Of a stretch of 59,105 nucleotides of DNA, positions 4,477-43,256 are shown piece by piece. The translations under genes and the position numbers were made by a program. The DNA is from Deltaproteobacteria bacterium (lineage in GTDB: Bacteria; Desulfobacterota; Desulfobulbia; Desulfobulbales; VMSU01), in NCBI GenBank assembly GCA_024275235.1, contig JAJRZN010000053.1, forward strand, positions 1-59,105, read 5' to 3'. Position 1 is the stretch's first letter, and every line of letters begins with the position of its first letter. The notes beneath the pieces were generated by a model, which ran no database searches, was not told the origin of the DNA, and saw only the letters and a list, made by a program, of their open reading frames with translations.

Positions 4477-4517
4477 TTAGTTAGTGATGGACTTTTTATG
4501 AGTCCATCACTAACTAA
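4477..4517. repeat. Perfect 17-bp inverted repeat (hairpin)
   Basis: TTAGTTAGTGATGGACT (4477-4493) is exactly complementary to 4501-4517 across a seven-base loop. It lies in the intergenic space between the SQR operon and the phosphatase gene, downstream of the terminator hairpin at 4533-4563 on the minus strand. It may be a backup terminator, an mRNA 3'-end stabiliser or a palindromic element. Confidence 0.75.
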
Positions 4518-4532
4518 TAAAACAATAAAAAA

Positions 4533-4563
4533 GGGGGGTCAATTTTTTTATTATTGACCCCCT
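4533..4563 (-). terminator. Rho-independent terminator of the ArsR/SQR operon
   Basis: On the minus strand a ten-pair GC-rich stem (GGGGGTCAAT with ATTGACCCCC) is followed directly by TTTTTTATTGTTTT. It begins 33 bases after the SQR stop codon, so it ends the minus-strand operon that starts at ArsR. Confidence 0.85.
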
Positions 4564-4595: not shown

Positions 4596-5786
4596 TTATG
4601 GTAACTGACTGTATCCGTGCCGCATTTTCCAGAGAAAGTATTTTTCAAATTGAATTTTAGCGGCTTTTACCCACCATGACTTTTTTAAATATGATTTTTG
4701 CCGGGGCGGCAGAATGGGTTCAGCCACCATTAAGGCCGCGGTTTTTCCCATATCCATAAAGCATACGACACTGAGTTCTTTTTCGCGGGACGGCGAGAGA
4801 TGCTGCATGTCAGCCGCGATATTAGCTGCTGCCGCTTTGGCCATTTTTACGGTCATGAATCCGGTTTTTGGGACTCCCGTCGGTATCGGGGTGGGTTCCG
4901 GCGGGGCTAAGGCCATGGCGACCCCGATGGTGTAAATATTATTGTGCCTGGGGTGACGGTAGTAGTTGTCAGCGGGAATAAATCCGCGCGGGTTGCCAAG
5001 GGATGCTACCCCCTGAACCCCTTTGAAAGGCGGGGCCAGCATGGCCAGTTTAAAGGGCAGTTTGCCGCCGCCTGCCAGACGGATTTCATCGGGGGTGATT
5101 TCATCTATTGCTTGATTGGTAACCGTCTGTATGTCCAGATCGGCAAATTCATCCTCCATGAAGCGTCTGGATTTGCCGAGTCCTCCCACTCCCATATGTC
5201 CCAGGTAAGGTTCCGAGGTAAGATAGGTAATGGGAACCTTGTGACGCATTTTTCGTTTCCGCAGCTCTTGATCCATCTCAAAAGCCAGTTCATAATAGGG
5301 CCCGAAACAACTTGCCATTTGGGTTGAACCGAGAACTATGGGGCCGGGGTTTTCCAGCAGTCTGTTCCATGCCTCTCTGCTTTTCAGGGCCTGCTCCATA
5401 CTGAAGGTACAATTAGTGTAACCCTCTTCCGGACTGAGGCCCGGTATTTCATCACATGAAAGATGGGGGCCGGTTGATATTATCAGGTAGTCGTATTCAT
5501 ATTCTTCCTTTTCGGTATGAACTTTGAGTTCATCCGGCATGACTTCCTTTACAGTGTCATGGATAAATCTTATTCCTTTCGGTTTAAGAATATCAGCCAC
5601 ACTGAGAGTAATATCCGCCGGTCGACGTGAGCCCATGATTACCCAGGGGAGTGAAGGCATAAATACAAAATCTTTATCTGAGCTGATCAATACAACCTCA
5701 GCCTTGTCTCCGAGAAGCCGTCTAACCTCAAGGGCGGCGGTAAGCCCGCCGAAGGAGCCGCCGATAACCACAATTTTCTTTTTCAT
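4596..5786 (-). CDS. Sulfide:quinone oxidoreductase-like flavoprotein
   Basis: 396 residues. An N-terminal FAD-binding Rossmann motif (VVIGGSFGGLTAA, residues 6-18) starts a two-dinucleotide-domain flavoprotein. Cysteines at 111, 126, 160 and 342 include three whose spacing matches the SQR cysteines (about 128, 160 and 356 in characterised enzymes) that carry the bridging persulfide. The amphipathic, Trp/Lys-rich C-terminus (about 365-390) resembles the SQR membrane-docking segment. Family reaction: oxidation of sulfide to polysulfide with electrons passed to quinone. It is the last gene of the ArsR-led operon, 39 bases after the DsrE-like selenoprotein, with an AAGGAAG ribosome site. A flavocytochrome-c-like or polysulfide-reducing role is also possible. 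Confidence 0.8.
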   Translation of the reverse strand: MKKKIVVIGGSFGGLTAALEVRRLLGDKAEVVLISSDKDFVFMPSLPWVIMGSRRPADITLSVADILKPKGIRFIHDTVKEVMPDELKVHTEKEEYEYDYLIISTGPHLSCDEIPGLSPEEGYTNCTFSMEQALKSREAWNRLLENPGPIVLGSTQMASCFGPYYELAFEMDQELRKRKMRHKVPITYLTSEPYLGHMGVGGLGKSRRFMEDEFADLDIQTVTNQAIDEITPDEIRLAGGGKLPFKLAMLAPPFKGVQGVASLGNPRGFIPADNYYRHPRHNNIYTIGVAMALAPPEPTPIPTGVPKTGFMTVKMAKAAAANIAADMQHLSPSREKELSVVCFMDMGKTAALMVAEPILPPRQKSYLKKSWWVKAAKIQFEKYFLWKMRHGYSQLP

Positions 5787-5825
5787 AGTGCTTCCTTTTG
5801 GTAATACATTCTGCTTGAACGGATT

Positions 5826-6146
5826 CTAAAATGTCAGAACCCTTTCACTCTCCTCAATCATTTCATAGAGGTCGGTCATAAAGCCCATGGGGCAAGATGA
5901 TGATCCCGTCTGACCACGGGATTTAAGGCAGACGCCTCAGACAATAAGCTCTCCGCCCCTGCTGTAAAATTCTTCAATCTGGCCGTTAACATCAAAGTTT
6001 TCAGATGAAATATCATTGAATTCAACCCCTTTGCCAAGCATGAACATATTAACTTCTTTGCCCTTGCTGAGACTGACATTGGCGAGTCTTACCGCATTGT
6101 AAACGGTCTCCGCGTTGTTTGTTGATATAATATAAAGCCATGCCAT
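5826..6146 (-). CDS. DsrE-like selenoprotein (in-frame TGA read as Sec at residue 70)
   Basis: Read through TGA 5939-5937, the frame gives 106 residues, a normal DsrE length; stopping there leaves only 69. The sequence after the TGA (GVCLKSRGQ, then CPMGFMTDLYEMI, then SERVLTF) is the conserved C-terminus of DsrE-like sulfur-relay proteins. The TGA sits where relatives have the first Cys of a CGxCLK motif, giving U-G-V-C. A SECIS-like hairpin at 5903-5922 begins 14 bases after the TGA. DsrE-fold proteins move persulfide sulfur in the cytosol, and DsrE-like families are, from memory, among known bacterial selenoproteins. The ribosome site GGGAGGAG precedes the ATG. A point nonsense mutation is the alternative, made unlikely by two neighbours with the same arrangement. 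Confidence 0.85.
5903..5922 (-). promoter_or_regulatory. SECIS-like hairpin of the DsrE-like gene
   Basis: On the minus strand a perfect seven-pair stem ATCCCGT/ACGGGAT closes a six-base loop GGTCAG. The loop starts 21 bases after the TGA, inside the usual bacterial SECIS spacing, and opens with GGTC, as in the Escherichia coli fdhF element that binds SelB. Confidence 0.75.
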
Positions 6147-6219
6147 ACCGTCTCCTCCCTTTGTGTGGATACTTGGTTAGTATCTCTTTGTAAACACTTC
6201 ACGAATAGAGCTGTTATGA

Positions 6220-6489
6220 TTAATTATTCACATCTTGATGCTGCCGGATAATATCTTCTAACTCCTGTTCATTAATGTCTTGCCCCTCGATAATTATTTC
6301 TCCATCAATGGTGCTAGCCGGTGCCTTGGGTAGTCCAGGTTTGGCGTAAGTTTCTGACTGATATTCCTGGCGCGGTTTTGAGATGGATTCAATGTCTATG
6401 GTAAATTTTTTACCCAGTCCGGGTAATATTTCCTGGAAATGGCTTCAGGTTTTGCCATTTGGTTCGTTCAGGAAAATTTTTATCAACAT
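6220..6489 (-). CDS. Small thioredoxin-fold selenoprotein (TGA/Sec at residue 15)
   Basis: Normal decoding stops after 14 codons, but reading TGA 6447-6445 as Sec gives an 89-residue protein starting MLIKIFLNEPNGKT-U-SHF. A first beta strand, then the redox residue at the start of helix 1, then a KAPAST segment (likely the cis-proline loop) and IDGEIIIEGQDI near the C-terminus fit a minimal thioredoxin/glutaredoxin fold. There is a single Sec and no CxxC partner, suggesting a monothiol-type (selenol) reductase or a protein resolved by a partner. AAGGAGG lies just upstream of the ATG. It sits between two other TGA-containing genes in the ArsR operon. The exact family is not recognised. Confidence 0.75.
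6410..6426 (-). promoter_or_regulatory. SECIS-like hairpin of the thioredoxin-fold gene
   Basis: On the minus strand a perfect six-pair stem TTACCC/GGGTAA closes the five-base loop GGACT. The loop begins 24 bases after the in-frame TGA, and G occupies its first two positions, as bacterial SECIS elements require. Confidence 0.7.
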
Positions 6490-6524
6490 AACAGCCCCTC
6501 CTTTTCAGTTATATGTCTGGTATC

Positions 6525-6974
6525 TTAAACTTCTTTCTGCCGCTGAAGTTTTGCCAGTAGAAAATCAGCTCCCCTCTTTGAGAGTCCCAGGCTCTCCGCA
6601 AGGTCTCCAGTTGTGCCTTGGGGGTGTTGTTTAAGGTAGGCCGCCACCTCGTACTCCAGTTCATCAAGCCAGCTTTCAAAGAGAATCAGGATATCCGGGT
6701 CCGTGACTGCCATCAACTGCCTGGATTGAGCGACCTTGTGTACCAATGTTTGACACATATGTGTTGGGTCGACACCTTCGCCCATGCATTCGGCGAGTCA
6801 GAGATCCACCATACTGGAAATTTTATCGCTGCCGGCTTCATCAATTAAATCTGTTACAAAATTGATCCTGGCATCCTCATCAAGATGGGCGAGGATTTTT
6901 TTGAGTTGCGGAGCTAAAGCCGTCAAGGCTTCGTCTGGTTCCATTGCCTCAATAATTTGTTGTAGTTCCTTCAT
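6525..6974 (-). CDS. Unrecognised selenoprotein with C-terminal winged-helix-like segment (TGA/Sec at residue 59)
   Basis: Reading TGA 6800-6798 as Sec joins a 58-residue N-terminal part to an 86-residue C-terminal part beginning five residues on, giving 149 residues in one unbroken frame. The Sec lies in MVDL-U-LAEC, so Sec and Cys are four residues apart, as in a redox pair on one helix. The C-terminal 40 residues (GTTGDLAESLGLSKRGADFLL) look like a helix-turn-helix with a recognition helix. A redox-sensing DNA-binding or adaptor protein is one inference; the family is unknown to me. It is the second gene of the operon, 20 bases after ArsR, with an AGGA ribosome site. Without readthrough the two halves would be separate short frames. 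Confidence 0.7.
6765..6784 (-). promoter_or_regulatory. SECIS-like hairpin of the third TGA-containing gene
   Basis: On the minus strand TGGGCGA pairs with TCG-A-CCCA (one bulged A) around the loop AGGTG. The loop starts 20 bases after the TGA and its GG is 21 bases away, the same spacing as in the DsrE-like gene. A second, weaker stem TCGCC/GGCGA overlaps it. Confidence 0.6.
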
Positions 6975-6994
6975 TGTCTATCCTGTAAAAAACG

Positions 6995-7333
6995 TTAAAA
7001 TGCTTTTCTGTTGGCCAGAAGTTCTGCCGCCAGGCTGTTTAGTTTCGAAAGAATTGTTACTATGCGGTGATCCGCCAACTCGTAATAAATAAACGGGCCG
7101 CTCCTCTCAACCTTTACCAGCAGGGCCCGCTTGAGTTCTTTAAGATGATGGGAGGCCAGAGGCTGTGAAATACCTATTTCTTCAACAATGCGGGAAACCG
7201 GTTTTTTACCCTTAGCCAGTACCATGATGATTCGCAGTCGATTTTCGTCAGCCATGGCTTTGGCTAGAAATGCCACAGCCTGCGGATCGGCATTTGTTAA
7301 ATTATCAGGTATAACTTTTACGTGTTTTTCCAT
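6995..7333 (-). CDS. ArsR-family transcriptional regulator
   Basis: 112 residues with the ArsR/SmtB winged-helix pattern: an N-terminal helix with LAKAMADENRLRIIMVL, the recognition helix ISQPLASHHLKELKRALLV (about 62-80), and a beta wing (VERSGPFIYYEL). The protein has no cysteine, so it cannot use the Cys-pair persulfide switch of SqrR/BigR or the Cys metal sites of ArsR/CadC; any ligand must bind differently. It leads the minus-strand operon of three TGA-containing genes and SQR. It is divergent from NDH-2, with a dyad (7372-7387) over the predicted -10 elements of both directions, so autorepression plus control of NDH-2 is likely. Confidence 0.9.
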   Translation of the reverse strand: MEKHVKVIPDNLTNADPQAVAFLAKAMADENRLRIIMVLAKGKKPVSRIVEEIGISQPLASHHLKELKRALLVKVERSGPFIYYELADHRIVTILSKLNSLAAELLANRKAF

Positions 7334-7352
7334 TAATCTTTCAATGCCGTCC

Positions 7353-7400
7353 TTGATTTGAATTATTGTTTGTATATATAAATATACGTTTATGTGTGAA
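7353..7400. promoter_or_regulatory. Overlapping divergent promoters, arsR operon and NDH-2
   Basis: Minus strand: TTCACA (7400-7395), 16-base spacer, TATATA (7378-7373), about 40 bases before the arsR ATG. Plus strand: TTGATT (7353-7358), 16-base spacer, TATATA (7375-7380), facing NDH-2. Both -10 boxes lie in the same dyad. These are pattern matches in AT-rich DNA only. Confidence 0.45.
7372..7387. promoter_or_regulatory. Candidate ArsR operator dyad
   Basis: GTATAT-ATAA-ATATAC is a perfect inverted repeat with a four-base centre, the size of ArsR-family operators. It lies 39 bases upstream of the arsR start and overlaps predicted -10 boxes of both divergent units. AT-rich sequence makes chance dyads more likely, hence moderate confidence. 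Confidence 0.5.
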
Positions 7401-7470
7401 TGTCAATAAAAAATTCAGGGCCTGAAAAAATGGGTGAGTTATTAACAACCTACCAGGAGAGGTCAATATT

Positions 7471-8748
7471 ATGAATAAAGATAAAGCGCAACATATCATT
7501 ATTATCGGGGCCGGATTCGGTGGACTTTATGCGGCGAAGCAGTTTTTAAAAGGTGGAAATAATTTTGAGATTACAATTATTGATGTCCGAAACTTCCATT
7601 TATTTCAACCCCTGCTTTATCAGGTTGCGACAGCCCAGCTTTCTCCCGAAGATATTGCTTATCCGATAAGAGCAATTTTTGAGCGCCATCCCAATATCAC
7701 TATCTTAAAAGAAAGGGTGAGTTTGGTTAATTTAAACAATAAATCTGTAACCGTTGACCATGGTGAACTCTCTTATGATAAACTGATTATTTCCGTTGGT
7801 GTTATACCTGATTATTTTGGTAACGACAGCTGGGAAGAAAACGCGCCGCCTTTAAAAAATTTGGAAGATGCTTTAAATATCAGAAAAAAAATATTAACAG
7901 CTTTTGAAAGGGCTGAGTCGGAAATACTGCATCCTGGTGATAAATATCCCCTGAACTTTGTAATAATCGGCGGTGGACCTACCGGTATTGAACTTTCCGG
8001 CGCCCTGGCCGAATTGAGTGTATACGCGTTAAAAAATGAGTTCAGAAAAATTAATCCTGAAAGATCTAAAATATACCTGCTTGAAGCAGGGAAAAATATT
8101 TTACCTGGATTTCCTGACAAGTTAATTAATTCAGCAAAAAAATCTCTTGAACAACTTGGAGTTATAGTAAAAACAAATTCTACGGTAACAAGTGTCAGAA
8201 CTAATGGTGTAGAAATAATATCAAACGGTTCATCTAAATTTATACAAAGTAAAGTTGTTATCTGGGCTGCCGGGGTTAAGGCGAATTTTAAAGACAGTGT
8301 TTTATCAACGGATAATAATGTGAAGTTTGATGAAAAGGGCAGGGTGTTGATTAATAAAGATTTAACAGTGGCAAACTTTAAGGATGTTTATGTAATTGGT
8401 GATTTTGGAAGTTTGATGGATGATAAAGGCAGGCCCTTACCGGCCACAGCTCCGGTTGCGATGCAGCAGGGTATTTTTGCCGCCCGGCATATCATGGGAA
8501 AATCACCAGCTCAGTTTAAATATTTTAATAAAGGCAGTCTGGCGGTTATTGGCAGGAATGCGGCGGTGGCTGATTTTGGTTCATTGCAGATAAGTGGATT
8601 TTTCGCCTGGGTTCTTTGGGCTTTTGTGCATATCGGTTATCTGATTGGACATCGGAATAAATTTATTATTATGGTTAAATGGGCCTGGAATTATTTTACC
8701 CGCAAACCAAGCGCGAGAATAATATTACGCGATTTTGCTGGTAGATGA
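7471..8748 (+). CDS. Type II NADH:quinone oxidoreductase (NDH-2)-like flavoprotein
   Basis: 425 residues. The FAD motif IIIGAGFGGLYAA (about 10-22) is followed by the NDH-2 hallmark FHLFQPLLYQVATAQLSPED; the second dinucleotide motif is IIGGGPTGIELSGALAEL. The C-terminal FAD contact is a GDFGSL segment, and the last 60 residues are hydrophobic/basic, as in membrane-bound NDH-2. Family reaction: NADH oxidation with quinone reduction and no proton pumping. Base composition is clearly more AT-rich than the genes on either side, which may indicate later acquisition. It is divergent from the ArsR/selenoprotein/SQR operon and may feed the same quinone pool. AGGAGAGG precedes the ATG. Confidence 0.85.
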   Translation: MNKDKAQHIIIIGAGFGGLYAAKQFLKGGNNFEITIIDVRNFHLFQPLLYQVATAQLSPEDIAYPIRAIFERHPNITILKERVSLVNLNNKSVTVDHGELSYDKLIISVGVIPDYFGNDSWEENAPPLKNLEDALNIRKKILTAFERAESEILHPGDKYPLNFVIIGGGPTGIELSGALAELSVYALKNEFRKINPERSKIYLLEAGKNILPGFPDKLINSAKKSLEQLGVIVKTNSTVTSVRTNGVEIISNGSSKFIQSKVVIWAAGVKANFKDSVLSTDNNVKFDEKGRVLINKDLTVANFKDVYVIGDFGSLMDDKGRPLPATAPVAMQQGIFAARHIMGKSPAQFKYFNKGSLAVIGRNAAVADFGSLQISGFFAWVLWAFVHIGYLIGHRNKFIIMVKWAWNYFTRKPSARIILRDFAGR

Positions 8749-19360: not shown

Positions 19361-21736
19361 GTGGATTTAAATGACTCACTAACCACAGGTATCAGCGATT
19401 TTTTTGATCTGGAAAATCAGGAAATTCCAGAGGAGCTGCCTGTAATGGCAGTACGGGATGTGGTTATATTTAATTATATGATTATTCCCCTTTTTGTCGG
19501 CCGCCCCGCCTCGGTGGCTGCGGTTAATGATGCCCTGGCTAAGGATAAACTGCTGCTGCTCGTCACCCAGAAAGACAGCACCCTGGATAAGCCGGGGCCT
19601 GATGATATTTATAAGGTGGGTATGGTCAGTATGATTATGCGTACCCTGAAACTGCCGGACGGCCGGCTCAAGGTGCTGATTCAGGCCTTGAGTAAGGCCA
19701 GGATAGATGAGCTGATCCAGACCGACCCCCATTTTCTGGCCAGAATCACCGTCCTTAATGATGAGGATACTACCGAGGTTGATGTTGAGATAGAGGCCCA
19801 GATGCGCACGGTGCGGGAGCAGACGGAAAAGCTCCTTGCCTTGAAGGGTATCATGGCCTCCGAGCTGATGATGATTCTGAATAATATTGAAGAACCCGGC
19901 CGTCTTGCTGATCTGGTTATCTCCAACCTGCGCCTGCGAACCAACGAGTCTCAGGAGGTTCTGGAGACCACTGATCCGGTTCAGCGTTTACGCAAAGTGG
20001 CGGAATTTCTGCGTAAAGAACTGGCAGTCTCCATCATGCAGGACAAGATTGAGTCCCAGGCCAAGGACGAGATGAGCAAGAGTCAGCGGGAGTATTATCT
20101 TCGGGAGCAGATGCACGCCCTGAAAAAGGAGCTGGGTGACGTTGACGACCGCTCTGAAGAGCTTGATGAGCTGCGTAAAAAAATCACCAGGATGCGGATG
20201 CCTAAAGAGGTCAAGAAAGAGGCCTTGAAGCAGTTGAAACGTTTTGAGATGATGCATCCGGACGCCTCCGAAGCCACCATTATCCGTACTTATCTCGACT
20301 GGATTGTTGATATTCCCTGGCAGTGCAGCACCAAGGATAAACTTGACCTGAAAGAGGCCCGCCGGGTGCTGGACAGTGACCATTACGGCCTTGATAAGGT
20401 CAAGGAACGGATTTTGTAATATCTTGCCGTCCGTAAACTGAATAAGAGTACCAAGGGGCCTATTCTGTGTTTTGTGGGGCCGCCAGGGGTGGGTAAGACC
20501 TCTCTCGGCCGTTCCATTGCCAGGGCCATGGGCCGTAAATTTTATCGGCTTTCCCTCGGTGGTATGCATGATGAGGCTGAGATCCGCGGTCATAGCCGCA
20601 CCTATATCGGTGCCATGCCCGGCCGCATTATTCAGGGGTTGAAGAGCGCCGGCTCCAATAATCCGGTATTTATGATGGATGAAATAGACAAGGTGGGGCA
20701 GGATTACCGGGGTGATCCCTCTTCAGCCCTCCTTGAGGTGCTGGATCCGGAACAGAATTTTTCCTTTTCTGATCATTACCTGAATCTGCCCATGGATCTT
20801 TCCAGGGTCATGTTCATTGTCACCGCCAATATGGTCGACACCATCCCCGCTCCCCTCTATGACCGCATGGAAATTATCCGTCTCTCCGGTTATACTCAGG
20901 AGGAAAAGCTGATTATTGCCAAACGTTATCTCGTGCCTCGTCAATTAAAGGATAACGGGCTCAAAAAGAAGCATATTGTTATTGACGATCAGGTTCTGGG
21001 GCTGATTATCAGCGGTTATACCATGGAGGCTGGTCTGCGAAATCTGGAGCGTGAGATTGGCAAGGTCTGCCGTAAGGTGGCTCGTAAGATAGCTGAGGGC
21101 GGCCGCGGCCCCTATAAGATATCTAAACGGACTTTGAGTAAATATCTCGGGCCGCAGAAGTTTCTGCCCGAGGCCGAGCAGGATAAAATCGATCAGCCCG
21201 GTCTGGCCACTGGTCTGGCCTGGACTGAGACCGGCGGGGTTCTCCTGTATATCGAGGTTTCTGTCCTGAAGGGCAAGGGTGGCCTTACCCTCACCGGGCA
21301 GTTGGGCGATGTGATGAAGGAATCGGCCCAGGCGGCTTTAAGCTTTTGCCGGGCCCATGTCGGTAAACTGAAATTACCGGATAATTATTTTGAGGATATT
21401 GATATTCATATTCATGTCCCGGCCGGGGCTATTCCCAAGGACGGCCCGTCGGCCGGGGTAACCATGGCCACTGCCCTTTATTCCGCCATTTCCGGCCGTC
21501 AGGTACGTTCAGACATCGCCATGACCGGTGAGATTACCCTGCGGGGCCGGGTTCTGCCCATTGGCGGCCTTAAAGAAAAGGCCCTGGCCGCTCTGCGGGC
21601 CGGGATCAAAACTGTGATTATTCCGGATGAGAACAAAAAGGATCTGGTGGAAATCCCCAAGGATATTCGGGAAAAGATGGAGTTTATCCCGGTCAGGAAT
21701 ATGAACCGTATTTTAAATATTGCCTTTAAAAAATAA
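19361..21736 (+). pseudogene. lon: Lon protease interrupted by an in-frame TAA
   Basis: Full-length Lon reading frame (791 codons) broken by one ochre codon at 20417-20419, where relatives have Glu (KERILEYLAV). Upstream part: N-terminal substrate-binding domain and the start of AAA+. Downstream, in the same frame: Walker [10 protein letters not shown], Walker B MDEIDK, and the protease domain with Ser in PKDGPSAG and Lys in [10 protein letters not shown]. Everything after the stop is intact, so this is either a very recent GAA-to-TAA change or a sequencing/assembly error. The GTG start at 19361 follows AGGAG. Lon degrades damaged and regulatory proteins in the cytosol. If the stop is real, no active protease could be made without readthrough. 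Confidence 0.85.
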
Positions 21737-23395: not shown

Positions 23396-25281
23396 ATGTA
23401 CAATCAGTTTAAAAAATTAAACTTCTGGCTTATTATCGGTACAGACTGCCTGCTGTTAAGTTGCGCTCATATCCTGGCCTACTGGATACGTTTTGCTCAG
23501 CTCAGCGCTTCCGAATGGCACAATATACTTCTTGTTCTGCCTTTGCTGCTGCTCTTTAAAATTATCGTCTTCTCTATGCTGGGTCTTTATCGCGGCATGT
23601 GGCGTTATACCGGCATTAATGATCTCTTAAAGGTTATCAAGGCCGTAGTCATACCACCATTACCGCCCTCGCTGTTCTGGCGGTGGTCAACCGCTTAGAG
23701 GGGTTCTCACGTTCCGTCTTCATCCTTGACGGTATCCTTACCCTGCTCTTTATCGGCGGTTTTCGTCTTGCTCTCCGGCTTTATTATCAACGCTCCGGCG
23801 GCAGTTTTTTCGCCCTTGACCGGGCCGCCCGCCTGTCTCAAAAAAAGCGGCTGTTGATTATCGGGGCCGGAGACGCGGCCGAAAAGATGGTGCGTGAAAT
23901 CAGAGACAACCCCCACCTGCCTTATCTCGTAGTTGGTTTTCTTGATGATATGCCCGTCAAGATAGGTAACCGGATTCACGGTATTACGGTGTTGGCTCCC
24001 ATCTCTGAACTGCACGAGACCATTATTAAGACCAAGAGTCAGGAAGTGTTAATTGCTATTCCTTCGGCCAGTCGTGATCAGATGCAGCGTATAGTTGATC
24101 TCTGCCGAACCGGCTCGGTACCCTATAAAACCCTGCCCAGTCTCGGCGAGATTATTAATAACAAAATATCCATCCGGGGGATCAGGGATGTCGCTTACCG
24201 CGACCTCCTGGGCCGCCCTCAGGTGCGCCTTGACCAGAGGCAGATAGAGGAAACTTTCCAGGGTAAAAGTATTCTTGTTACAGGAGCCGGTGGTTCAATT
24301 GGCTCAGAACTCTGCCGCCAATTACTGCGTTTTGCCCCTGGTTGTTTAATCCTGCTTGATGCTGGCGAGCAGAATCTCTATCAGATAGAGATGGAGTTGT
24401 TGCATGAGCATGGTTTTGCCGATTATGTGACCATCTTAGGCAAGGTGCAGGACAGGGAACTGCTTGACAGTATATTTAAACGTTATCATCCTCAGATAGT
24501 TATCCATGCCGCGGCCTATAAACATGTACCAATGGTGGAGAAAAATCCCTGGGAGGGGGTTTTTAATAATGTCTTTGCCTCCCGGCGTCTGATGCGGGCC
24601 GCCTGCCGGTACGGGGTGGAGCGTTTTATTGTGGTTTCCACCGATAAGGCGGTACGCCCCACTAATGTCATGGGAGCCACTAAACGGCTCTGTGAACGGA
24701 TTATGCAGGCCTACTGCATAGCCAACAAGGAGAGGGGAAAAACCCGCTTTATGGCGGTACGTTTTGGTAATGTCCTGGGTTCCTCCGGCTCGGTAATTCC
24801 TCTTTTTAAGCGCCAGATTGAGATGGGCGGCCCGGTGACCGTAACTCATCCGGAGATTAACCGCTATTTCATGTCCATTGATGAGGCGGCCCAGCTTATT
24901 CTCCAGGCCGCGGCCATGGGTGAGGGTGGGGAAATATTCATCCTCAAGATGGGTTCGCCGGTTTTGATCGCCCAGATGGCCCGTGATCTCATAAGGCTGT
25001 GCGGCAAAGAACCGGATACTGAAATTGAGATTAAATATACCGGCCTGCGCCCCGGGGAAAAGCTCTATGAGGAGTTGATTACCGAAGGTGAGGGAATTGT
25101 CGCCACCCGGCATGAAAAGATTATGGTCTTGCGTGGTAACGGCATCCAGTTAGCCGAGCTCCGGCCGCTCCTCGAAAAACTGAAAGACTGCGCCCGTCAC
25201 CATGATGCCGGGGGGATTAAAAAAATTCTGCTGGAGATGGTGCCTGAATATACCCCGGAGGAGAATGAGGCGGTACTCTAA
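23396..25281 (+). pseudogene. CapD/FlaA1/WbpM-like nucleotide-sugar 4,6-dehydratase, frameshifted
   Basis: The N-terminal part (23396 to about 23650) encodes the membrane helices and RGMWRYTG; the remaining 530 codons are one frame over. At 23651-23653 one base is missing: adding it restores a continuous sequence across the junction. The rest has a CoA/NAD-binding domain (LIIGAGDAAEKM) and the CapD domain: VTGAGGSIGSELCRQLL, HAAAYKHVPMVEKNPWE and STDKAVRPTNVMGATKR. Family role: UDP-GlcNAc 4,6-dehydration or epimerisation for O-antigen, capsule or glycoprotein sugars, anchored in the inner membrane. The break is early and the rest intact, so it may be an assembly error; a GTG near 23683 could give a soluble form. 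Followed by a heptosyltransferase. Confidence 0.8.
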
Positions 25282-42314: not shown

Positions 42315-43256
42315 ATGTGGCACATGTATCTTCCCATTGCGGGAAACAGCGTAAATGTTATTACCATCTTTGGCCTGGGCGGCGTTGTCGGCCTGCTGTC
42401 AGGGATCTTTGGGGTTGGAGGCGGATTTTTGATGACCCCATTGCTGATAATGATTGGTATCCCCCCCACCGTGGCGGCTGCCTCGGATTCCAACCAGATC
42501 GTCGGGGCATCCACCTCCGGCACCCTGGCCCATTGGCGGCTGGGGAATGTTGACGTCAAGATGGGATTGTTACTTCTCGTCGGCGGAGTAATCGGCGGCA
42601 CCGGGGGCGTTCAGGTAATCAAGGTGCTGCGTGCCATGGGTAATGCCGATTTTCTGATTAACATTACCTATGTTCTTATGCTGGGCGGGGTTGGATCTTA
42701 TATGTTCTGGGAAAGCCTGCAGGGTTTAAAGCAGGAGCCTGAAACTTCACCGTCCCGGGAGACGGCAGCGGCAGCTCCCAAAAAGGAATCCACCTATGCC
42801 CGGCTGCTCAAAATGCTTCCCTGGCAGACAAAATTTGAAAAATCAGGCTCGGAGATTTCCATCCTGCTGCCTCTTGTTTTCGGCACCCTGGTGGGTGTCC
42901 TGGCCGCTATTATGGGGGTTGGCGGCGGTTTCATCATGGTACCGGTAATGGTCTATTTACTGCGGATGCCCATGCATGTCGTAGTTGGTACCAGCCTGTT
43001 CCAGATTCTCTTCACCTGTGTAAATGTTACCATTATGCAATCATACAGTAACCATACGGTTGATTTTGTTCTGGCCCTTCTGCTGCTGGCCGGTTCCACC
43101 ATCGGCGCCCAGTTTGGTACCGCGGTGGGGAAAAAATTAAAAGGTGATCAATTAAAAATTCTATTAGCGTCACTGGTTCTTCTTGTCTGCGTAAAAATGT
43201 TGGCCGGACTCCTGATAACGCCGGATATTCTCGTCGCTTTAAAGGGAGGACATTGA
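42315..43256 (+). CDS. TauE/SafE family permease
   Basis: 313 residues. Both halves show the family motif: GLLSGIFGVGGGFLMTPLL and, after a hydrophilic loop (about 130-185), GVLAAIMGVGGGFIMVPVM. About eight to nine membrane helices. Such permeases export sulfite or related anions. It is followed three bases after its stop by a TIGR02186-like exported protein, a pairing I know from other proteobacteria, and is likely driven by the upstream sigma-54 promoter. Confidence 0.9.
   Translation: MWHMYLPIAGNSVNVITIFGLGGVVGLLSGIFGVGGGFLMTPLLIMIGIPPTVAAASDSNQIVGASTSGTLAHWRLGNVDVKMGLLLLVGGVIGGTGGVQVIKVLRAMGNADFLINITYVLMLGGVGSYMFWESLQGLKQEPETSPSRETAAAAPKKESTYARLLKMLPWQTKFEKSGSEISILLPLVFGTLVGVLAAIMGVGGGFIMVPVMVYLLRMPMHVVVGTSLFQILFTCVNVTIMQSYSNHTVDFVLALLLLAGSTIGAQFGTAVGKKLKGDQLKILLASLVLLVCVKMLAGLLITPDILVALKGGH

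Follow-up and report, generated by a model that had tools for sequence, protein, structure and literature searches.

A predicted tso-family operon with a selenocysteine-containing DsrE-like protein and a sulfide:quinone oxidoreductase homologue in place of TsoB

Gene organization of the locus

The window analysed here is a whole stretch of 59,105 nucleotides, contig JAJRZN010000053.1 of a Deltaproteobacteria bacterium (assembly GCA_024275235.1). On its minus strand five genes follow each other head to tail in the order tsoR-tsoA-tsoC-dsrE(Sec)-sqr, with spacers of 20, 35, 73 and 39 bp in that order (Table 1). Three of them are interrupted by an in-frame TGA, predicted to encode selenocysteine (Sec) and followed by a hairpin that resembles a selenocysteine insertion sequence (SECIS). 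Judged from sequence, the string is a tso-family operon with a Sec-containing DsrE-like protein (Sec-DsrE) and a sulfide:quinone oxidoreductase (SQR) homologue in place of TsoB, and it is not categorically new.

An earlier sequence-only reading of this locus gave coordinates and a description that are correct in nearly all details. The ArsR, SQR and divergent NDH-2 genes and the dyad that it named are all present, and sequence comparison supports its assignment of the gene downstream of the selenoprotein genes as SQR. The single terminator that it placed after SQR has to be replaced by two hairpins, one followed by a T run and the other a perfect inverted repeat, both of which were unlisted by the automatic terminator scan. 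An Rfam scan of the window returned one tRNA and nothing else.

Table 1. Features of the tso locus in the window.
Feature	Coordinates	Strand	Description
tsoR	6995..7333	-	ArsR/SmtB-type regulator, 112 aa, zero Cys; NCBIfam NF045707 157.1 bits (cut-off 115), HTH_5 match
tsoA	6525..6974	-	LULAEC-motif selenoprotein (predicted), 149 aa, Sec59, helical, helix-turn-helix (HTH)-like C-terminus; NF045695 220.8 bits (cut-off 170)
tsoA UGA = Sec59	6798..6800	-	in-frame TGA, predicted to be read through
tsoA SECIS-like hairpin	6765..6784	-	loop AGGUG
tsoC	6220..6489	-	NEPNGKTU thioredoxin-fold selenoprotein (predicted), 89 aa, Sec15, zero Cys; NF045708 125.9 bits (cut-off 45)
tsoC UGA = Sec15	6445..6447	-	in-frame TGA, predicted to be read through
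tsoC SECIS-like hairpin	6410..6426	-	loop GGACU
DsrE-like (YchN-related) selenoprotein gene	5826..6146	-	106 aa, Sec70, U-G-V-C motif; PF02635 34.5 bits (cut-off 22.7)
dsrE UGA = Sec70	5937..5939	-	in-frame TGA, predicted to be read through
dsrE SECIS-like hairpin	5903..5922	-	loop GGUCAG
SQR (sulfide:quinone oxidoreductase homologue)	4596..5786	-	396 aa, no TGA, Cys111, 126, 160, 342
tsoR operator candidate	7376..7395	.	20-bp AT-rich dyad; motif recurs upstream of tsoR in relatives
Likely terminator 3' of SQR	4534..4562	-	10-bp stem hairpin, then minus-strand T run
Second hairpin 3' of SQR	4477..4517	.	perfect 17-bp inverted repeat
NDH-2, divergent	7471..8748	+	intergenic region common with tsoR; not a conserved neighbour

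Relationship to the Tso families

TsoR, TsoA and TsoC of the window each score above the curated cut-offs of their NCBIfam models, which together with TsoB (NF045694) make up the named Tso families. A passage of a 2026 review introduces "Tso (three selenoprotein operon)" with further selenoproteins adjacent, citing Haft and Tolstoy 2025 (PMC13188914), and it was the only paper on Tso among the matches listed in the literature search on Tso terms. DsrE-like selenoproteins also have a history: an excerpt of PMC1794560 (2006) lists one for Desulfovibrio vulgaris, and the family appears in a table of the review (PMC13188914). The view that the gene set is not a described system is therefore not supported, because NCBIfam models exist for TsoA, TsoC and TsoR and the quoted passage of the review names Tso. 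In the parts of the literature consulted, however, these named proteins come without a described function.

The locus is alike to Tso in having R, A and C on the same strand, with tsoR and tsoA first as they are in relatives, and in having three selenoprotein genes, tsoA, tsoC and dsrE, in an operon read from the gene layout, with gaps of 20–73 bp. It differs in its DsrE-like third selenoprotein, in the SQR gene that closes the operon, and in TsoB, which was not found in the source genome (93% complete): the best match there reached 70.7 bits against a cut-off of 805, and nothing was returned at E 1e-50. Classification as canonical Tso was rejected for want of a TsoB match, and the locus is almost certainly a tso variant.

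For comparison, contigs were scanned with a TsoA alignment, giving 159 relatives of which 80 were kept, and further stretches were fetched from genomes of the phylum. Nearly all of the kept relatives bear deltaproteobacterial or Desulfo-/Syntropho- names; four are named merely "Proteobacteria" and one Nitrospirae. The starting set was the window and 128 fetched loci; removing loci with an identical TsoA translation or a TsoA match below 60 bits left 120 loci, some of which match TsoA distantly or in fragments. At 117 of these 120, TsoR is encoded no more than 1 kb upstream of TsoA.

Predicted recoding of the UGA codons

The three adjacent selenoprotein frames are open when only TGA is read through, and each of them holds exactly one such codon, as the sequence-only reading had it. 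Its GG-loop hairpins were also measured as claimed: the loop starts 20 bases past the UGA in tsoA, 24 in tsoC and 21 in dsrE, and GG begins at the second loop position in tsoA and at the first in the other two. The codons downstream, said to be intact, encode protein that is conserved in relatives for all three genes.

Among the homologues at the fetched loci, the Sec motif is borne by 122/131 tsoA, 115/116 tsoC and 27/35 dsrE matches, which collapse to 85, 101 and 25 distinct post-UGA sequences. A test for SECIS-shaped structures with a synonymous-codon null took over from plain minimum free energy and was rerun on these distinct sequences. Hairpins with a GG loop and an energy of -4 kcal/mol or lower are found in 84/85 tsoA, 96/101 tsoC and 25/25 dsrE sequences, and these hairpins are stronger than those of synonymous shuffles (Wilcoxon p 1.7e-14, 8.9e-18 and 6e-8, respectively, kinship uncorrected). 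In the window, none of 25 shuffles was as good as the native hairpin for either tsoC or dsrE. Two results for tsoA point the other way: plain folding energy over the 48 nt after the UGA was not significant (p 0.06), and the hairpin of the window copy is unexceptional, with 7/25 shuffles equal or better. The SECIS-shaped test also failed for tsoB, where it was placed at the first of two UGAs lying close together; such a hairpin was found in 2/62 sequences and was weaker than the null.

The Sec column of tsoA is invariant in an alignment of 30. Over all 131 tsoA matches, 114 have Sec within the motif, one has Arg, and 16 fall outside the motif; read from their rows, Sec persists in 8 of the latter within a divergent sequence context, and the remaining 8 are fragmentary, lie in other frames or have no Sec motif. 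The Arg form occurs in one metagenome-assembled genome (L135), where it replaces the Sec residue of TsoA. In addition, TsoA exceeds its cut-off in 33 of the 395 phylum genomes sampled, and every such match has one internal TGA. It had been proposed to see whether the TGA columns align with Cys in relatives. This holds for the DsrE-like protein, with Cys at the Sec column in four relatives (L090, L095, L173 and L183), one of which (L173) carries a Cys form and a Sec form in tandem, and for TsoC, whose column tally is 114 Sec and 1 Cys. It does not hold for TsoA, which has no Cys form among its 131 matches.

The source genome (2.79 Mb in 269 contigs) contains the whole set of Sec genes that had been suggested as a check, all over the curated cut-offs: selA (607 bits), selB (379), tRNA-Sec (selC, 73.7) and selD (376). 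As an alternative, the TGAs might be ordinary stops or sequencing errors in decayed genes, as the fragmented assembly and an in-frame TAA in the lon frame of the window might suggest, but this has a negligible chance of being right, since the same TGA columns in other assemblies, the conserved protein beyond them, the hairpins above the synonymous null and the full Sec machinery already contradict decay. On the same four grounds, the three UGA codons are, as far as sequence goes, recoded as Sec.

TsoB and the Sec-DsrE/SQR pair across tso loci

TsoB, Sec-DsrE and SQR were called within 8.5 kb by profiles built from the 120 loci, with fixed bit cut-offs set for this purpose by ourselves. At one locus with the gene order R-A-B-C (L107), TsoB is a rhodanese/DsbD/thioredoxin protein of 573 aa with two UGA codons. 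Of the 120 loci, 83 have flanks of 4.5 kb or more downstream and 2.6 kb or more upstream. TsoB alone occurs at 39 of these 83, Sec-DsrE alone at 21, both at none and neither at 23 (Fisher p 8e-8, kinship ignored). SQR or Sec-DsrE is found at 2/39 loci with TsoB compared with 27/44 without it (p 3e-8), and SQR taken singly at 2/39 compared with 14/44 (p 0.002); SQR occurs at 8/21 loci with Sec-DsrE and at 8/62 others (p 0.02), kinship being ignored in these three comparisons as well. Overall, SQR is present at 18/120 tso loci.

Wherever a tso locus holds both genes, dsrE lies directly upstream of sqr (8/8). The pair itself was found at three positions, namely just past the tso genes, about 5 kb further downstream, or ahead of tsoR. 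At L102 and L142, about 5 kb separates tsoC from the pair, and near tso loci with such a gap genes for MMPL-like transporter, LolA-like and outer-membrane-like proteins recur (of these labels, that of LolA was obtained by search). At genome level, a search at E 1e-50 gave no TsoB match for 11 of the 36 TsoA genomes covered. It included 11 genomes with Sec-DsrE at a tso locus: 8 of these are without a match, and the other three (G184, G231 and G273) have partial matches, below the cut-off and TGA-less, over the DsbD part. On a quick, poorly resolved TsoA tree, the TsoB and Sec-DsrE labels switch many times.

The DsrE-like protein and the SQR homologue

Among solved structures, the DsrE-like protein is closest to YchN, its profile matching 1jx7 and placing the Sec (U) column at a Cys of that chain, and Sec replaces the first cysteine of the CxxC motif in its DsrE domain. 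It is alike to the DsrE-like selenoprotein (PF02635, UxxC) of the excerpts cited above (PMC1794560; PMC13188914) in its domain and in the Sec of its U-G-x-C motif. Here it is encoded in an operon directly before SQR, whereas Sec-DsrE genes elsewhere mostly have no common partner. A function could not be drawn from Sec-DsrE genes outside tso, as 20 stretches around them offered no common partner but ArsR neighbours in a few genomes, and nothing firm came of it. L098, the closest relative to share this operon, has a DsrE-like gene (7249–7386) that seems to miss its first half including the Sec codon; its tsoA, tsoC and SQR look whole.

The SQR homologue matches 3hyv over its full length at E 3.3e-91, followed by 3sy4 and 3kpk; we take the first to be Aquifex SQR and the others to be SQR chains of the Acidithiobacillus type. 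Its Cys160 and Cys342, presumably the redox cysteines, fall on cysteines of 3hyv. What sets it apart from the Aquifex protein is that it is operonic with selenoproteins. It is not a Sec-containing type III SQR (NF049943), scoring 98.9 bits against 525 and having no TGA, and it is the single match in the source genome at E 1e-20. In another genome (G240) the single SQR match likewise adjoins tso, and in a further one (G195) SQR lies away from tso.

TsoA and TsoC

The predicted structure of TsoA is helical, with a mean predicted local distance difference test (pLDDT) score of 69.7 and a predicted template modelling score of 0.38, and its structural matches are not significant. The C-terminal part appears HTH-like without significance (Pfam HTH_24, 19.8 bits against 21.9), so that an HTH reading is weak given the middling model confidence and the lack of a significant fold match. 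TsoC is modelled with a thioredoxin fold (mean pLDDT 71.1, best structural match E 8e-4). At least one Cys is present in 94/116 TsoC matches, and none in the window copy.

TsoR and the divergent promoter region

The ArsR-type regulator had been called cysteine-free, which is true of TsoR in the window. Of 117 distinct relatives, 46 are Cys-free over the aligned part (residue 16 onward), and there is no conserved Cys column, the best one being common to 41/117 at most. SqrR and BigR are ArsR-type repressors that sense persulfides by cysteines. TsoR is alike to them in the ArsR fold and in controlling, as predicted, a sulfide-linked operon, but it has no counterpart of their conserved cysteine pair and scores 43.6 bits against 155 with the BigR model. 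Sensing of the SqrR/BigR type was therefore rejected for TsoR, and its way of sensing must differ.

The dyad claimed for the divergent promoter region recurs upstream of tsoR in relatives. The heptamer ATATAAA, on either strand, is found in 74 of 114 upstream regions compared with 7.7 expected, and the fitted dyad motif, trained on these same sequences, exceeds the 95th percentile of shuffles in 65/114 and fails in 49. The 20-bp dyad is the sole site in the source genome at up to 2 mismatches; since a reversed control pattern gave 3 matches, this is no proof of specificity. The single site favours a local regulon over a wide one, and together with the recurrence of the motif it makes TsoR look like a local repressor of this operon. 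TsoR possibly controls the divergent NDH-2 gene also. Nevertheless, NDH-2, which had been counted with the set, is a divergent neighbour at 1/120 tso loci, that of the window alone, and was rejected as a member of the system; of six NDH2 matches at other loci, five coincide with SQR genes, and the sixth, at L123, falls on a different flavoprotein with 23% identity and 41 bits.

A proposed sulfane-sulfur function and its alternatives

The DsrE, rhodanese, DsbD and SQR families have established roles in sulfur or thiol-redox chemistry. Since the parts that vary between tso loci include rhodanese/DsbD on one side and DsrE with SQR on the other, all of which belong to sulfur-transfer or sulfide families, a function in sulfane-sulfur chemistry is suggested. 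The explanation that we consider best is a TsoB-less tso operon with a Sec-DsrE/SQR pair instead, forming an inducible selenol system for sulfane sulfur; taken as a whole, it has about an even chance of being correct, and the sulfur mechanism in itself slightly less than that. TsoR would repress the operon until a signal arrives. SQR would then oxidize sulfide and pass the electrons to quinone, leaving sulfane sulfur, which Sec-DsrE could take onto its selenol. The sulfur might be relayed or reduced by TsoA and by TsoC, which here combines a thioredoxin fold with Sec and lacks a second thiol. TsoB would have the corresponding role in the classical operon, acting across the membrane through its rhodanese and through DsbD electron transfer. 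Such a system would more likely serve to control or detoxify reactive sulfur than to drive bulk energy metabolism. A persulfide relay onto the quinone pool, as put forward from the sequence, thus stays plausible and gains indirectly from the replacement pattern at related loci; the chemistry itself stays conjectural.

Several observations weigh against this sulfane-sulfur explanation. TsoB and SQR occur together at two loci (L100 and L154). In an independent-pairs test on 76 of the 83 loci, 4 well-supported pairs were available, in which TsoB changed in the same direction as Sec-DsrE in 0, in the opposite direction in 2.6 on average and with no difference in 1.4; because 4 pairs are too few, the mutual exclusion falls short of significance under phylogenetic control. 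Relatives of the DsrE-like protein, mostly with one TGA, occur in 72/395 genomes, many of which have no TsoA, and are mostly standalone, so that the protein is not dedicated to tso. Moreover, Sec-DsrE genes away from TsoA showed no SQR match in their surroundings, as sampled by 20 stretches of at most 11 kb, some shorter, taken from those 72 genomes. TsoR is without the cysteines of a persulfide sensor, and an ArsM-like methyltransferase occurs at 7 tso loci and an MbdU-like DUF5714 protein at 6 (one representative of each was labelled, below the NCBIfam cut-offs). Finally, SQR was poorly expressed according to excerpts of two Desulfurivibrio studies (PMC5516251; PMC12142623), and the low-expressed SQR of Desulfurivibrio sp. 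AMeS2 (PMC12142623) is, we infer, the same gene as the tso-adjacent SQR of G240.

The ArsM-like and MbdU-like genes, present near a few tso loci, are the reason why a role in defence against metalloids or organometals keeps some weight, although it is rather unlikely. TsoR would sense a metal or metalloid, which the selenols of TsoA, TsoC and DsrE would bind or reduce as the thiols of ArsD and ArsC do, with SQR as an accessory flavoprotein. TsoR does belong to the ArsR/SmtB family and is termed a metalloregulator by NCBIfam, ArsD (3kgk, E 0.016) is among the weak fold matches of TsoC, and in one genus (G055, G091 and G017) Sec-DsrE stands beside ArsR, a permease and an ACR3-like gene, the last two labels being read from sequence. 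However, SQR, whose cysteines align with those of the Aquifex enzyme, is present at the 18 tso loci mentioned above, TsoB is a rhodanese/DsbD fusion, no arsenic gene was seen in the operon of the window, and TsoR is without conserved Cys ligands, the check having covered Cys ligands only.

Defence against oxidative or electrophile stress, with the three selenoproteins as a chain that reduces peroxides or disulfides and with SQR holding sulfide low, is improbable. The thioredoxin fold of TsoC would fit such a chain, as would thioredoxin reductase-like genes near some tso loci (one cluster of 9 genes, label read from sequence), and the Cys-to-Sec families in an excerpt of PMC1794560 are mostly thiol-redox homologues. 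Family scans found no peroxidase family in the operon, however, and the partners TsoB, DsrE and SQR belong among the enzymes of sulfur transfer or of sulfide.

The variant ties two selenoproteins without a described function, TsoA and TsoC, to members of two families of known chemistry, a DsrE-type protein and an SQR, and hints at what stands in for TsoB. If the sulfane-sulfur explanation holds, sulfate reducers and sulfur disproportionators would use Sec to move sulfane sulfur, and cultured Desulfurivibrio would offer a way to test the tso operon. A more general proposal, which we put forward tentatively, is that Tso consists of interchangeable modules: a selenol core (TsoA and mostly TsoC) with a repressor lacking conserved thiols might be plugged into either the TsoB conduit or, through Sec-DsrE/SQR, the quinone pool, and TsoA, with its HTH-like end and its place nearly always after TsoR, might perhaps be a redox sensor that gates TsoR. 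Such modules would amount to a selenium-based sulfane-sulfur relay of respiration or sulfur defence.

Other genes at tso loci and in the window

Further genes were noticed around tsoA in the relatives. At 22/120 tso loci (e.g., L119 and L144), the tsoA strand carries the SGNPxU motif of TsoX, with varied partners, and 8 loci have a gene for TsoY (SLAC1 family), labelled from one representative over the cut-off. A VTT-domain (TVP38-like) membrane protein is encoded at 32 tso loci, of which 27 have TsoB; its gene is always on the same strand (32/32), and most of the 25 positions listed are 2–4 kb downstream of tsoA.

Elsewhere in the window, a lon protease frame (19361–21736, plus strand, name read from sequence) is broken by an in-frame TAA at 20417–20419, owing to an error in the sequence or to decay of the gene. 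At 23396–25281 (plus strand), the overlapping open reading frames 23396–23698 and 23683–25281 lie in different frames and look like one split gene, possibly through a frameshift. Two homologues of TauE/SafE-family sulfite exporters are encoded at 214–996 and 42315–43253.

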